A DNA stretch of 64,000 nucleotides from assembly GCA_028866995.1 (NCBI GenBank), contig JAGWHD010000001.1, forward strand, positions 247,218-311,217, read 5' to 3'. The notes beneath the pieces were generated by a model, which ran no database searches, was not told where the DNA came from, and saw nothing but the letters and a program-made list of their open reading frames with translations. The DNA is from Microcaldota archaeon. Lineage in GTDB: Archaea; Micrarchaeota; Micrarchaeia; Micrarchaeales; CABMGC01. Position 1 is the first letter of the stretch; each line of letters begins with the position of its first letter. The position numbers and the translations under genes were made by a program. This document shows, piece by piece, positions 8,372-17,504 of the stretch.

Positions 8372-8524
8372 TCACTTCTTGACTCTCTTCTCCTTCCTCT
8401 TCGGCCTCATGTAGATTGAGCCGCACTTCCTGCACTTCTCGGATCCGGCCTTGTTCCTGGCCTTGCACTTCCTGCATATCCATATTTGGGTCAGAACTTC
8501 GTCTGCCAGCGGAAACTTTCCCAT
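8372..8524 (-). CDS. rpl40e: 50S ribosomal protein L40e
   Basis: Not in the supplied ORF track; my translation is MGKFPLADEVLTQIWICRKCKARNKAGSEKCRKCGSIYMRPKRKEKRVKK, a CxxC...CxxC zinc ribbon typical of archaeal L40e. Confidence 0.85.
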   Translation of the reverse strand: MGKFPLADEVLTQIWICRKCKARNKAGSEKCRKCGSIYMRPKRKEKRVKK

Positions 8525-8620
8525 AATCAGCACGATCAGAAAGGAATAATCTTATCGTATATCCGTAAAGGTATAAAAAGGCATGGCTTCAATTTAAATC
8601 AGGTTTGGATTGGTGTCTGG

Positions 8621-9205
8621 ATGATAATAGTAGACGACTATAAGAATGCGATAAACAGCATGCTGCACCCAAGTGCAGGCACGAAGAATAAGATGAAGGT
8701 CGGGGAGGCAATAATACATTTCTGGAAGGCAAGCGCGATACCGTTCGTATTGTGGGTACTTACCTCGATGGTACTGGGCAGCGCAGTCGGCGGACTGTTC
8801 GGCACTGCGGCAACTGGCCTTGGCCCCGTTTTAGGCGGCCTTCTCGCTGGAGGCATTACCTTCCTGATCATACTCTTCTACATAATCCTGATGCCGGTAT
8901 CGATAATCATAAATGCTGCGTGGATACACCTGTTTGGCAAGTTTCTCCTCAGGTTCTTCAAGAACGACTATGCGGCCACTGCCACAGCGGTCTCGTATTC
9001 TACGACCGCTGCGATGAGCTTCATCTGGGTGCCTTTCATAGGCAGTCTGATAGCGCTGTGGGCCGTAGTGGTGGAGGTGCTGGCACTTGCGAACCAGCAG
9101 GGAATAAGCTGGGTCAAGTCGCTGGGAGTCCTTATAGCGTGTGTTGTGATTCCGATAGCAGTCGTGCTTGTAGCTGCCTTCGCCATAGGTTTTGCACTAG
9201 GTTAG
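8621..9205 (+). CDS. Yip1-like multi-pass membrane protein
   Basis: Several TM helices, glycine-rich; ATG 8621 avoids overlap with L40e. Confidence 0.5.
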   Translation: MIIVDDYKNAINSMLHPSAGTKNKMKVGEAIIHFWKASAIPFVLWVLTSMVLGSAVGGLFGTAATGLGPVLGGLLAGGITFLIILFYIILMPVSIIINAAWIHLFGKFLLRFFKNDYAATATAVSYSTTAAMSFIWVPFIGSLIALWAVVVEVLALANQQGISWVKSLGVLIACVVIPIAVVLVAAFAIGFALG

Positions 9206-9417: not shown

Positions 9418-10218
9418 ATGGATAGGGTTAGAACCGGCATTGGAGGATTCGATGGGTTGGTCGAGGGAGGGTTCCCGGCAGGCTCAAACATACTGCTTAC
9501 CGGGTTGCCAGGTACTGGAAAGACGATTTTCGCTTTGCAGTACCTGTACAACGGAGCAATGAACGGCGAGAACGGGATATACGTCACCCTTGACGAGTCC
9601 TTCGAGATGATTAAGGAGCAGGCGAAGCAGTTCGGATGGGACTTCGACAAGCTGGAGGCCGAAGGCAAGGTGGCCTTCATAAGCGTGAGGCTGGGAAGGA
9701 CCAAGCTAGACATATTCGACCAGATACGTGAAGCAAGGGACAAGGTGAACGCTAAGAGGCTGGTTTTCGATAACCTTGCCACATACGCGGTGAACCTTGA
9801 CCTCTTCACGATACCTGTTGGATATGCAGGAAGCATAGCCTCTACGGTGGAGATGACTGCGAGAGGCATAGAGAGCGGCGGCAACCTGCTCGCGGAGAAG
9901 GGCGACAAGATATACTATACAGGGAACATGGAGAAGAGGCTGATATACCTGATAGTCGAGCATCTCTCGAGGCTCGGAACGACGAATCTGGTGCTGACTT
10001 ACGGCAACCCGGACCTCAACCAGCTTACCATAGACGGGGTCAGCGAGTTCGCTTGCGACGGCATAGTCGAGATGTTCAACCAGTTGGTAGGGGCGAAGCA
10101 CGTCAGGACCATAACTGTCATGAAGATGAGGAACACGAAGCAGAGCCCTTACATCAATGACCTTGAGATAACGGGCCAGGGATTGGTCGTGAAGCCTGTG
10201 GAGAAGGTATACGGATAG
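9418..10218 (+). CDS. KaiC/RadA-superfamily ATPase
   Basis: Walker A GLPGTGKT, RVRTGIGGFDGLVEGGFPAGSNILL, YVTLDESFEMI. Confidence 0.9.
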   Translation: MDRVRTGIGGFDGLVEGGFPAGSNILLTGLPGTGKTIFALQYLYNGAMNGENGIYVTLDESFEMIKEQAKQFGWDFDKLEAEGKVAFISVRLGRTKLDIFDQIREARDKVNAKRLVFDNLATYAVNLDLFTIPVGYAGSIASTVEMTARGIESGGNLLAEKGDKIYYTGNMEKRLIYLIVEHLSRLGTTNLVLTYGNPDLNQLTIDGVSEFACDGIVEMFNQLVGAKHVRTITVMKMRNTKQSPYINDLEITGQGLVVKPVEKVYG

Positions 10219-10250
10219 AGCCAGAGCTTCAGCGGGTTTGGTGGTTGGGG

Positions 10251-10796
10251 ATGAACATATTCGAGAGGTTACTACTTTCAAGGGAGGTGACCCTGAGAGA
10301 GGGGGAGATTACGCTAGACAATCAGAGAGTGCTGATGTTCCCCGTGAATTTCATAGCCTCTTATACGCTTAAGCTTGCGAATAACGAGGCCGAGGGAAGG
10401 AAGCTGTACGAGATAATGAAAAAAGGCATGTACGACTTCTCCATACCAATAGGCAAGGAGTATGGCCTTTCGTACAAGGACTTTCTTGACAGATGGATAA
10501 AGTACAACGCGTTTGCAGGGTGGGGGATGGTGGAATACAAGGTGATCGACGCAGACGCAGCTCACGGGTTCCTGACCTACAAGAACCTTACGCTGCACCT
10601 GTATCTGAAGAGCAAGGACGTGAGGAAGCATTCCGACAGGCTGCTGGAGGGCATAATAGCGGGGGCGCTGTCCAGCACGTTCAAAGTAGACATAGACGCT
10701 GTTGAAACGCAGTGCGTCTGCTCAGGAAACGATGTGTGCGTATTCCATTGGGGGCCCAAGGACTACCTTAGGAAAGAGTTCCCAGGTCTGATATGA
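10251..10796 (+). CDS. V4R-domain-like protein (copy 1)
   Basis: C-terminal AVETQCVCSGNDVCVF typical of V4R domains; paralogous to next gene. Confidence 0.65.
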   Translation: MNIFERLLLSREVTLREGEITLDNQRVLMFPVNFIASYTLKLANNEAEGRKLYEIMKKGMYDFSIPIGKEYGLSYKDFLDRWIKYNAFAGWGMVEYKVIDADAAHGFLTYKNLTLHLYLKSKDVRKHSDRLLEGIIAGALSSTFKVDIDAVETQCVCSGNDVCVFHWGPKDYLRKEFPGLI

Positions 10797-10812
10797 CAGG
10801 TGTTTGCAAATG

Positions 10813-11358
10813 AATTTCTTTGAAATGCTGATAATGAGCAGGAAGATGGCGTTCCAGGACGGAACGGTTACCCTGTACGGGGAAAACGTGCTCATCTTCC
10901 CCGCTCCGAGCATAATAAAGTACATATGCCTGACAGGCACAGACCCTAAGAACGCGAAGGAGCTGTACCACATGGCAAAGGAATCTATCCTCGAACGCAG
11001 GGGCAACATCAACAGCACCGGCAATTCGGAGGCTGATGTCTCTTGGGTGATAGATACGGTGAACCTGTATGGGCTTGGCAAGCTGCATTACCAGGAAACC
11101 GCAGGCACGGCGCCTGCAGGGATAATAATAGTGGAGAATTCACCTTTCTCGAATAGCCCTGACTGCATGGTCGGTGCACCGATGGACCACATACTGCGTG
11201 GCATACTGGCAGGCATGGCCTCGGCGGTCTTTAACAAGGAACTTGAAGCAGTTGAGACCGAGTGTAGGGTAGTAGGAAGCAGCGTGTGCAAGATTGCGCT
11301 CGATACCAAGGAAAACCTGATGAAGAGGTATCCTGCCATGTACAAAGCGCAGACATGA
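10813..11358 (+). CDS. V4R-domain-like protein (copy 2); start 10804..10813 uncertain
   Basis: MNFFEMLIMSR parallels MNIFERLLLSR of upstream gene; AVETECRVVGSSVCKI. Confidence 0.65.
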   Translation, partial: NFFEMLIMSRKMAFQDGTVTLYGENVLIFPAPSIIKYICLTGTDPKNAKELYHMAKESILERRGNINSTGNSEADVSWVIDTVNLYGLGKLHYQETAGTAPAGIIIVENSPFSNSPDCMVGAPMDHILRGILAGMASAVFNKELEAVETECRVVGSSVCKIALDTKENLMKRYPAMYKAQT

Positions 11359-11371
11359 TGCGGATCCTGCG

Positions 11372-12346
11372 CTACCAGGTGTCGACCTTCATCTCATAGG
11401 CCTTCTCTATATACTCCCTTTCCTTAAGGAACCTTTCCATGTCCACGGACTTTATCTCGTTGGCTATCTCCTTTATCAGCTGGTAGTAGTCCTGCCATTC
11501 CCTGATTATCTTCTCCTCGAACCTCGGGTAGCGGCTTTCGCGCTTGAGCAGCTTGTTGAGCTTGAAGGTTATTCCGCCCTCCCTCTGCTTTATGAACTTG
11601 AGGACTGCCTCGCTGGACATATCAGATTCTAGGAGCTCTCTCGGATACGTGCCCAAAAGGTTCCCTATCCTTGCCATTTTCTGGGAGATGTAGTTGAGCT
11701 GCCTCAGCATTCCTAGCTCGGCTTCATTGAAACCTTTGGAGCACATGAGGTCCAGGTCCATCTGGATCATTATCTGCATGCCGTGCGGTATGTAGGCCTC
11801 GTTCTCTATCACGTTTGCTGTCTTCTCGTCCTCGTTCACGAATTTGCTGTACCTAAGGGCGTTGAGCAGCTGCATGACGTCGAAATTGAAGGCCTTCTCG
11901 TACCTCTCGTAGTGGGGGTACTTCTTTATGACCCCCATCAGGTCGTTTTCCCATATGTCTTTGGTCACTTCAAGGTATGATACCTCATTCGCACTCAGCT
12001 TTGACCTGTCTATGTGGCCTGAGTCAAATGGTATCTTCATCAGCTCGTCGAACAGCTTGAAGTTGCGGGTATCCGCGTTGTCAACGAGGTCGTCAAGCAG
12101 GACCTCCCACAGCGCGAATTCGGTCTTTATGATTGCGAGCGAGCCCAGGTATTGGGGTTCTACTGTCGATAGGCTGCAGTTCTCAAGGACGCGCAGGGTC
12201 CAGTCGAACATGCTCACATCCCTTCTGCCTATCCTTGCATACTTGTCTACAGTAGTCGACATCTGTTTTATGAGCTCCTCGTGCTTCGCCACGGTCTCCG
12301 GTCGTAGTACAGTCGAAGGAAAGCCCTCATCAGGATATCGTTTCAT
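11372..12346 (-). CDS. Class I terpene synthase-like protein
   Basis: DDLVD (DDxxD) and RIGNLLGTYPRE, fitting the N...(S/T)...E NSE triad, about 140 aa apart; 324 aa from ATG 12346. Confidence 0.6.
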   Translation of the reverse strand: MKRYPDEGFPSTVLRPETVAKHEELIKQMSTTVDKYARIGRRDVSMFDWTLRVLENCSLSTVEPQYLGSLAIIKTEFALWEVLLDDLVDNADTRNFKLFDELMKIPFDSGHIDRSKLSANEVSYLEVTKDIWENDLMGVIKKYPHYERYEKAFNFDVMQLLNALRYSKFVNEDEKTANVIENEAYIPHGMQIMIQMDLDLMCSKGFNEAELGMLRQLNYISQKMARIGNLLGTYPRELLESDMSSEAVLKFIKQREGGITFKLNKLLKRESRYPRFEEKIIREWQDYYQLIKEIANEIKSVDMERFLKEREYIEKAYEMKVDTW

Positions 12347-12903: not shown

Positions 12904-13431
12904 TTGATTGCTATGGAGAGGAGAAACGGGATAGCGAGAATGGGGATTGCGGCTCTGGACAGGGTTCTCGGCTTTGAGGATGCTTACGCGCACTGCGACA
13001 TACCCTGCGGCATATACGATCCGCACATGGCGCAGCTTTCGGCGCACACGGTCATAAGGATGATAGACCTGGCAAGCGCGCTCCCTACGGATCCCTCGAA
13101 GATAACGGCCGAGGACAGGGAGAAGTTCGTGAGGTACGTGCATGTCAAGGAGGAGCACGCGGCAACGGTCAAGGACGAGGTCAGGATAATATGGGGGGAC
13201 TACTTCAAGCCAGAGCACATAAAGGCGCACCCAGAGCTGCACGAGCTGGTCTGGAACATAATGAAAGGGGGATCCAAGGCGAAGCAGACGCTCGACATCA
13301 AGGCAGCGGAGGAGCTTCTGGAGAACGTGCAGAGGTTCGCCGAGATATTCTGGGAGACGAAGAACGTCAAGACCAAGAGGGCCAAGTCCTTCTACCCGAC
13401 AGAGAGGACATTCGTGTATCCGCAGGTATAG
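12904..13431 (+). CDS. sodN: Nickel-type superoxide dismutase
   Basis: HCDIPCGIYDPHMAQ Ni-hook (HCxxPCxxY) after a 20-30 aa leader ending AYA. Confidence 0.93.
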   Translation: MIAMERRNGIARMGIAALDRVLGFEDAYAHCDIPCGIYDPHMAQLSAHTVIRMIDLASALPTDPSKITAEDREKFVRYVHVKEEHAATVKDEVRIIWGDYFKPEHIKAHPELHELVWNIMKGGSKAKQTLDIKAAEELLENVQRFAEIFWETKNVKTKRAKSFYPTERTFVYPQV

Positions 13432-13433
13432 GC

Positions 13434-13718
13434 GTGCTCCCGATAAAGATATACAGGGTAAGGAGCAGGAGCATGGAGCCGGCATTGCGCGAGGGCGACT
13501 ACGTGATAGTTAGGGCATGGAGGGGCGGTATCAAGGATGGCGATGTTGTGATACTGAGGCATCCGCTGAAAAACATGTCCTTGGTGAAAAGGGTTAAATG
13601 GATTGACAGCAAGAGCGTGTATGCGGTCGGTGACAACGGCGCTGAGAGCGAGGACAGCAGGACATTGGGACCGTTTGACGTCAGCAGCATAATGGGCAAG
13701 GTGCTCTTCTCTGTATGA
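13434..13718 (+). CDS. sodX: Ni-SOD maturation protease, S26 signal-peptidase-like (GTG start)
   Basis: VRSRSMEPALREGDYVIV and LVKRVK S26 boxes; GTG 3 nt after sodN stop. Confidence 0.88.
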   Translation: MLPIKIYRVRSRSMEPALREGDYVIVRAWRGGIKDGDVVILRHPLKNMSLVKRVKWIDSKSVYAVGDNGAESEDSRTLGPFDVSSIMGKVLFSV

Positions 13719-16909: not shown

Positions 16910-17434
16910 TTACTGCATCTCCTCGTACGCCTCTGTTACCCTGTTTATGCTGATGACAAGCCAGGGCGAGAACTTCTTAGGGTCCTTTGATATCTCCTTC
17001 TTCAGCTCCGGCAGGCTTATCCACTTCCAGTCACCCACCTCCTTGGGATCGGGCTTCGGCTCCTTGTCGTAGAAGCCGAAGAATACATGGTCGTACTCGT
17101 GCTCAGTGAGCCCCTCGCCCACATCTGCCCTGTACGTGAAATGGAATGCCTCCTTGAGGTTGCAGTCGAAGCCCATCTCCTCCTTGAGCCTCCTCCTTGC
17201 AGCTGTTATCGTAGCCTCGTTCGGGTACGGGTGGGAGCAGCAGGTGTTGCTCCATATGTTCTTTGCGCTGTGCTTGGTCTCTGCCCTCTTCTGCAGCATG
17301 GTCTCGCCCTTGCTGTTGAAGACAAATACAGAGAATGCGCGATGGAGCCTGCCACCGTTCTGGTGCGCCTTGATCTTCTCCTCCGTGCCTATCTGGTTGT
17401 CGTTCTCGTCTACAAGTATGACGTTTGTGACCAT
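16910..17434 (-). CDS. idi: Isopentenyl-diphosphate delta-isomerase type 1
   Basis: NIWSNTCCSHPYPNE, RRLKEEMGFDC Nudix box, EHEYDHVFFG. Confidence 0.93.
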   Translation of the reverse strand: MVTNVILVDENDNQIGTEEKIKAHQNGGRLHRAFSVFVFNSKGETMLQKRAETKHSAKNIWSNTCCSHPYPNEATITAARRRLKEEMGFDCNLKEAFHFTYRADVGEGLTEHEYDHVFFGFYDKEPKPDPKEVGDWKWISLPELKKEISKDPKKFSPWLVISINRVTEAYEEMQ

Positions 17435-17504
17435 GTTTAGATATTCCAAGAAAAGCATAAATAGGTGCCATGGGCATACGTTGTATATCTAATGCTTGAT
17501 CAAC

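Follow-up and report, generated by a model that had tools for sequence, protein, structure and literature searches.

The window, i.e. the whole stretch of 64,000 nucleotides that was analysed, encodes on its minus strand a class I terpenoid-synthase-like protein of 324 amino acids (positions 11372 to 12346; hereafter the enzyme). The start of the open reading frame is supported by an N-terminus, M-(K/N)-R-Y-P, that is conserved in close relatives. The protein contains the DDxxD metal motif noted in the preliminary description, at residues D85 to D89 (DDLVD; 12080 to 12094, minus strand) and not near residue 95 as given there. The NSE-like metal motif, placed by the same description about 140 residues further on, was found at N229 to E237 (NLLGTYPRE; 11636 to 11662, minus strand), with N229-T233-E237 starting 144 residues after D85. 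Both the open reading frame and the two motifs were thus confirmed. All six metal-motif residues were invariant across seven full-length sequences of the family (46-81% pairwise identity; 87 invariant columns), D85, D86 and D89 in the first motif being accompanied by N229, T233, Y234, P235, R236 and E237 in the second. A third element, E181-x3-Y185-x2-H188 (11783 to 11806, minus strand), lies near the sensor-Arg site of bacterial enzymes and is a signature of the family, as it is invariant even in a thaumarchaeal relative of 34% identity.

Tail to tail with the enzyme gene lies a run of three plus-strand genes. The first encodes a KaiC-like ATPase (9418 to 10218; PF06745, E 9e-50) with the Walker A motif GLPGTGKT. 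It is followed by two genes for V4R proteins: V4R1 (10245 to 10796; ATG possible at 10251), in which three Cys towards the C-terminus are conserved and whose PF02830 match (E 1.8e-6, 28.3 bits) lies just under the cut-off of 31, and V4R2 (10804 to 11358; ATG possible at 10810), which passes the same cut-off with 33.1 bits. The ends of the convergent V4R2 and enzyme genes are separated by 13 bases, which confirms the tail-to-tail position of the V4R genes given in the preliminary description. Directly upstream of the KaiC gene, positions 8486 to 9205 (plus strand) encode a 239-amino-acid protein with several hydrophobic stretches and no family match, which was not seen beside the module in other genomes.

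Outside the module, a type 1 isopentenyl-diphosphate isomerase (16910 to 17458, minus strand; TIGR02150, 138.5 bits, cut-off 105.8) provides for precursor supply in the same genome, which also contains a PF00348 prenyl synthase. Positions 12904 to 13431 (plus strand) encode a nickel superoxide dismutase that carries the hook HCDIPCGIY and scores 172 bits with TIGR02753; it is 82% conserved in one of the related genomes (G119). It is followed by an S26-type peptidase (13191 to 13718, plus strand) scoring just under the model of the Ni-SOD maturation protease. Ni-SOD is probably uncommon in DPANN.

Sequence comparison and predicted fold

Known terpene synthases were reached at significance by none of the sequence searches with the enzyme, and the PDB, searched with single sequences and with profiles, yielded chance matches only. 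The profile of bacterial class I terpene synthases, PF19086 (Terpene_syn_C_2), scored 12.2 bits against the enzyme and 18.3 bits (E 0.002) against the best-scoring relative (G174), in both cases under the curated cut-off of 23.7 bits. The profile check initially suggested for this protein hence returned a match, but a sub-threshold one; in the best relative the match was nevertheless co-linear over profile positions 1 to 168 of 199 and included both motifs. With hhalign, only the NSE region was aligned to a set of 14 terpene synthases (E 0.11); as this did not surpass a prenyl-synthase control, which matched off the motif, the comparison was given no weight.

The same 14 terpene synthases, taken from plasmid records and from PDB search output, were aligned with the enzyme family in two modes without constraints. 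In the numbering of a sequence annotated as pentalenene synthase, D85/D86/D89 aligned in both modes on the known ligand positions D80/D81/D84, and N229/T233/R236/E237 on N219/S223/K226/E227. The enzyme thus resembles bacterial class I terpene synthases (e.g. pentalenene, epi-isozizaene, cucumene and avermitilol synthases) in its length, its predicted fold, its DDxxD motif and an NxxxS/TxxxE motif with K or R before the E, the spacing of the motifs being 144 residues in the enzyme versus 139. It differs from them in its sub-cut-off Pfam score, in the second residue of the NSE motif (L or V in the family, not D), in the diphosphate-sensor Arg (R173, about 46 residues before the NSE motif), whose place is taken by E183 in the enzyme and by E or G in the family alignment, and in the C-terminal RY pair, which has no counterpart, the protein ending there. 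The E-x3-Y-x2-H signature and the KaiC-V4R context set it apart further. Given the Pfam score and the absence of the sensor Arg and the RY pair, membership of the canonical PF19086 family is not supported; these features rather point to a divergent enzyme of the class I terpenoid-synthase fold.

Trans-prenyl diphosphate synthases (PF00348) and MoeN5 share with the enzyme the fold class and the first DDxxD. The second DDxxD typical of trans-prenyl diphosphate synthases is absent from the enzyme, whose second motif differs, and a search with PF00348 gave no match. We also rejected a match of one family member to PDDEXK_10 (E 0.0026; 18.1 bits against a cut-off of 21.2), since it covered 34 residues near the C-terminus in that member only. 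Other PF19086 matches in the phylum were likewise discarded as canonical terpene synthases, as the two that were checked overlap PF00348 prenyl synthases. No viral relative of the enzyme was found.

Two AlphaFold models were built from different query sequences of the family, using alignments of the family's own members only (model 1: pLDDT 69.4, pTM 0.67; model 2: pLDDT 73.3, pTM 0.71). Confidence was good for residues 20 to 165 approximately and poor after the second motif. The first 50 PDB matches returned by Foldseek were class I isoprenoid-synthase folds with one exception for model 1 (49 of 50) and without exception for model 2 (50 of 50); a different fold, the outcome named beforehand as refuting, did not turn up. 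The terpene cyclase AriE was the top match for both models (probability up to 1.00), and pentalenene, cucumene and epi-isozizaene synthases were near the top. The DDxxD motif is placed at the C-terminal end of a predicted helix (residues 64 to 89) and the NSE-like motif at that of another (208 to 233); both helices are long, and this placement is the one expected of motifs that line one cavity. With E-values of about 0.04 and above and TM-scores of about 0.4-0.5, the fold match represents consistent support, not proof, and we assign the class I terpenoid-synthase alpha fold with moderate confidence.

The low similarity to known terpene synthases would also be expected if the motif pair had arisen by coincidence in an unrelated all-helical protein. 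The strict DDxxD and NxxxS/TxxxE pair at the spacing of the enzyme was obtained in 89 of 100,000 shuffles of its protein sequence (about 0.1%), and in none of 160 other open reading frames of at least 250 amino acids from the window and from 16 Micrarchaeota loci without the gene. Coincidence is nonetheless very improbable in view of the invariance of the motifs and their alignment register, the agreement of the fold search for two different query sequences, the co-linearity of the sub-threshold Pfam match, and the prenyl-enzyme company kept by the sister loci described below. The original designation as class I terpenoid-synthase-like is therefore backed by conserved motifs, alignment register and fold search.

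Relatives of the enzyme and conservation of its gene neighbourhood

Relatives of the enzyme were identified in 6 of 301 Micrarchaeota genomes, including that of the window; one is cut by a contig end. The closest, at 81% identity, belongs to a Candidatus Micrarchaeota archaeon, which confirms the DPANN host proposed earlier and identifies it as a micrarchaeon. The enzyme, V4R1 and V4R2 genes are adjacent in all five readable Micrarchaeota loci (the window, G119, G166, G174 and G200), with varying gene order, and the KaiC-like ATPase gene adjoins in all four whose contig reaches that far, the G119 contig beginning at V4R1. In G200 and G174 the enzyme gene lies downstream of the KaiC gene in the same orientation, the open frames being 13 and 3 bases apart, respectively, and is convergent with V4R2. 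In the sixth genome (G195) the contig ends inside the enzyme gene, and no KaiC gene lies upstream. Orthologues of V4R1 (at least 50% identity) were present in only 5 of the 301 genomes, all of which have the enzyme (co-occurrence P 3e-10, a value that ignores kinship).

Beyond the phylum, a Nitrosopumilaceae metagenome-assembled genome (MAG; G301) carries two divergent copies of the enzyme gene (L101 and L102), 65% identical to each other, while none was found in 249 other searched genomes of its family. Contamination was considered as their source and rejected: both copies have further genes of the MAG as neighbours (hemL/hemC-like and SUF-like genes, and a THI4-like gene), and the flanks of the first copy have the same G+C content, which makes transfer likelier than contamination. 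No V4R1 relative was detected in this MAG, indicating that the enzyme can exist without this V4R protein. The relative of 34% identity mentioned above is a fragment in another thaumarchaeal genome of the same class (G692). It keeps D85/D86/D89 and is cut short by the end of the contig at about the expected place of the second motif. A gene ending 67 bases before its start, on the same strand, encodes a protein with a V4R domain at its C-terminus (E 7e-10). Upstream of these two genes, a 448-amino-acid protein (L104, 4432 to 5778, plus strand) with the Asp-rich stretches NDDWQTKD and DDAVDLLID gave no significant Pfam match and is possibly another isoprenoid enzyme.

The absence of the sensor Arg and the RY pair, together with the tight link to a signalling-type module, might suggest that the protein has kept the class I fold but lost its catalytic function, binds a prenyl diphosphate or a hydrophobic ligand and acts as partner or sensor of the V4R-KaiC module. 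We regard this as rather improbable, because none of the six metal-binding residues varies among sequences with identities as low as 46%, with the three Asp residues of the first motif retained even in the most distant relative, and because copies of the enzyme occur in a genome in which no V4R1 relative was detected.

Prenyl-diphosphate enzymes beside sister KaiC-V4R loci

Weaker relatives of V4R1 in other Micrarchaeota (mostly 21-36% identity) mostly adjoin a KaiC gene too, and their neighbours include genes for further enzymes with prenyl-diphosphate substrates. Pfam searches confirmed cis-prenyltransferases beside V4R loci of four genomes (G160, G109, G118 and G277) and UbiA proteins beside those of four others (G203, G117, G137 and G158); G137 has a mevalonate-kinase-like gene as well. 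For the 34 genomes in which V4R1 relatives occur, neighbours within 1.5 kb of a V4R gene were counted. Cis-prenyltransferase genes were found there in 5 of 38 cases (0.22 expected, Poisson P 3e-6) and UbiA genes in 9 of 76 (0.46 expected, P 2e-9); as genome sizes were rounded and the genomes are related, these P values are indicative. In the 34 genomes, the V4R-adjacent cis-prenyltransferases are exactly the second copies, in five of five cases (L047, L054, L055, L056 and positions 1161 to 1817 of contig C17 in G178). Three of them diverge considerably (PF01255, about 53-57 bits). Methyltransferase or FIST-domain genes take the place of prenyl enzymes at some other V4R loci, so that the prenyl-enzyme link is frequent, not universal. 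Two loci form expanded arrays with several KaiC genes and up to four tandem V4R genes (G139, L049, 195 to 8754; G137, L053), that of G139 including a FIST-domain protein.

The V4R-linked enzymes found at the sister loci (UbiA and cis-prenyltransferases) all belong to the prenyltransferases, which raises the question whether the enzyme, with the same fold and metal site, might prenylate an acceptor in the manner of MoeN5 or trans-prenyl synthases and release no free terpene. MoeN5 and trans-prenyl synthases are indeed among the Foldseek matches of model 2. However, the second motif has the terpene-synthase form NxxxTxxxE and is not a second DDxxD, PF00348 does not match, and terpene synthases head the structural matches. 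A prenyltransferase is therefore an unlikely identity for the enzyme, though one to be kept in mind.

Proposed mechanism and relation to known systems

We favour, with a probability of roughly 0.6, the reading that the gene encodes a divergent, single-domain enzyme of the class I terpenoid-synthase fold that removes diphosphate, within a KaiC-V4R module whose V4R proteins would read its product or substrate. We infer that D85/D89 and N229/T233/E237 would hold a Mg2+ cluster by which the enzyme binds a prenyl diphosphate, supplied by the trans-prenyl synthase (PF00348) of the same cell. The enzyme would then ionise this substrate, remove the diphosphate and release a linear or cyclic terpene. 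In what we consider the likeliest arrangement, which is also the simplest way to read the linkage, V4R1 and V4R2 would bind the hydrophobic product, or the prenyl substrate, and pass its level on to the KaiC-like ATPase. By gene order, the reverse direction, with V4R and KaiC controlling the enzyme, is equally allowed.

According to an earlier account (PMC2253512), V4R is a domain for hydrophobic ligands and can signal either in cis or in trans; for KaiC-like ATPases, a role as signalling hubs of archaea has been suggested (Makarova et al. 2017, as cited in PMC5847659). The linkage of enzyme and V4R genes, together with the prenyl enzymes beside sister loci, makes the idea of a terpene product as V4R ligand, put forward speculatively in the preliminary description, a reasonable one. 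The link between enzyme and V4R is now stronger than first stated, owing to the adjacency in five of five loci, the distant relative and the sister loci, while the product as ligand would still be a matter of interpretation. More generally, it is conceivable, if somewhat doubtful, that KaiC-V4R represents an archaeal isoprenoid-signalling system, in which swappable enzymes make a lipid-like messenger that V4R senses and the KaiC-like ATPase relays; under this tentative reading the role of the swappable enzyme would be filled by a divergent terpene synthase at some loci and by a second cis-prenyltransferase or a UbiA prenyltransferase at others.

The V4R domain occurs widely among prokaryotes and is a relative of Bet3, a trafficking protein of eukaryotes, yet we know of essentially no natural V4R ligand in archaea. 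The repeated linkage of V4R to three unrelated kinds of prenyl-diphosphate enzyme offers a testable ligand class. V4R1 and V4R2 share a domain match with known V4R proteins (PF02830; DmpR-type phenol sensors, Bet3 relatives) but differ from them in being paired, in forming a run with a KaiC-like ATPase, and in being linked to prenyl-diphosphate enzymes. The KaiC-like ATPase of the window resembles known archaeal ones in its PF06745 domain and its adjacent sensor-type genes; a link of such ATPases to prenyl enzymes was not found in the literature searched.

Clear terpene synthases are encoded on plasmids of two haloarchaea, Actinarchaeum halophilum and Halocatena marina. Like the enzyme of the window, they are archaeal and carry class I motifs; unlike it, they show clear similarity (about 30% identity, E about 1e-24) to enzymes of actinobacteria, and no V4R gene is annotated within the 8.9-kb stretches around them. 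A preprint by Samusevich et al. (bioRxiv 10.1101/2024.01.29.577750), going by its title as cited in PMC12797696, claims terpenoid biosynthesis in archaea and may overlap with the family of the window enzyme. In the light of the plasmid genes and of this claim, class I terpene synthase genes in archaea are not new as such. What appears to be new is a divergent terpene-synthase-like family in Micrarchaeota and the link of KaiC-V4R to three kinds of prenyl-diphosphate enzyme; a description of either was not found in the literature searched. If our reading is correct, a terpene-synthase-like family that curated profiles miss exists in an archaeal phylum with small genomes and has apparently been transferred to a thaumarchaeon, and its enzyme may produce a lipid-like signal or react to one. 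The two haloarchaeal plasmid genes (L078, 3482 to 4873; L079, 3467 to 4906) are annotated as hypothetical protein and SRPBCC family protein, and each is followed by a polyprenyl synthase gene.
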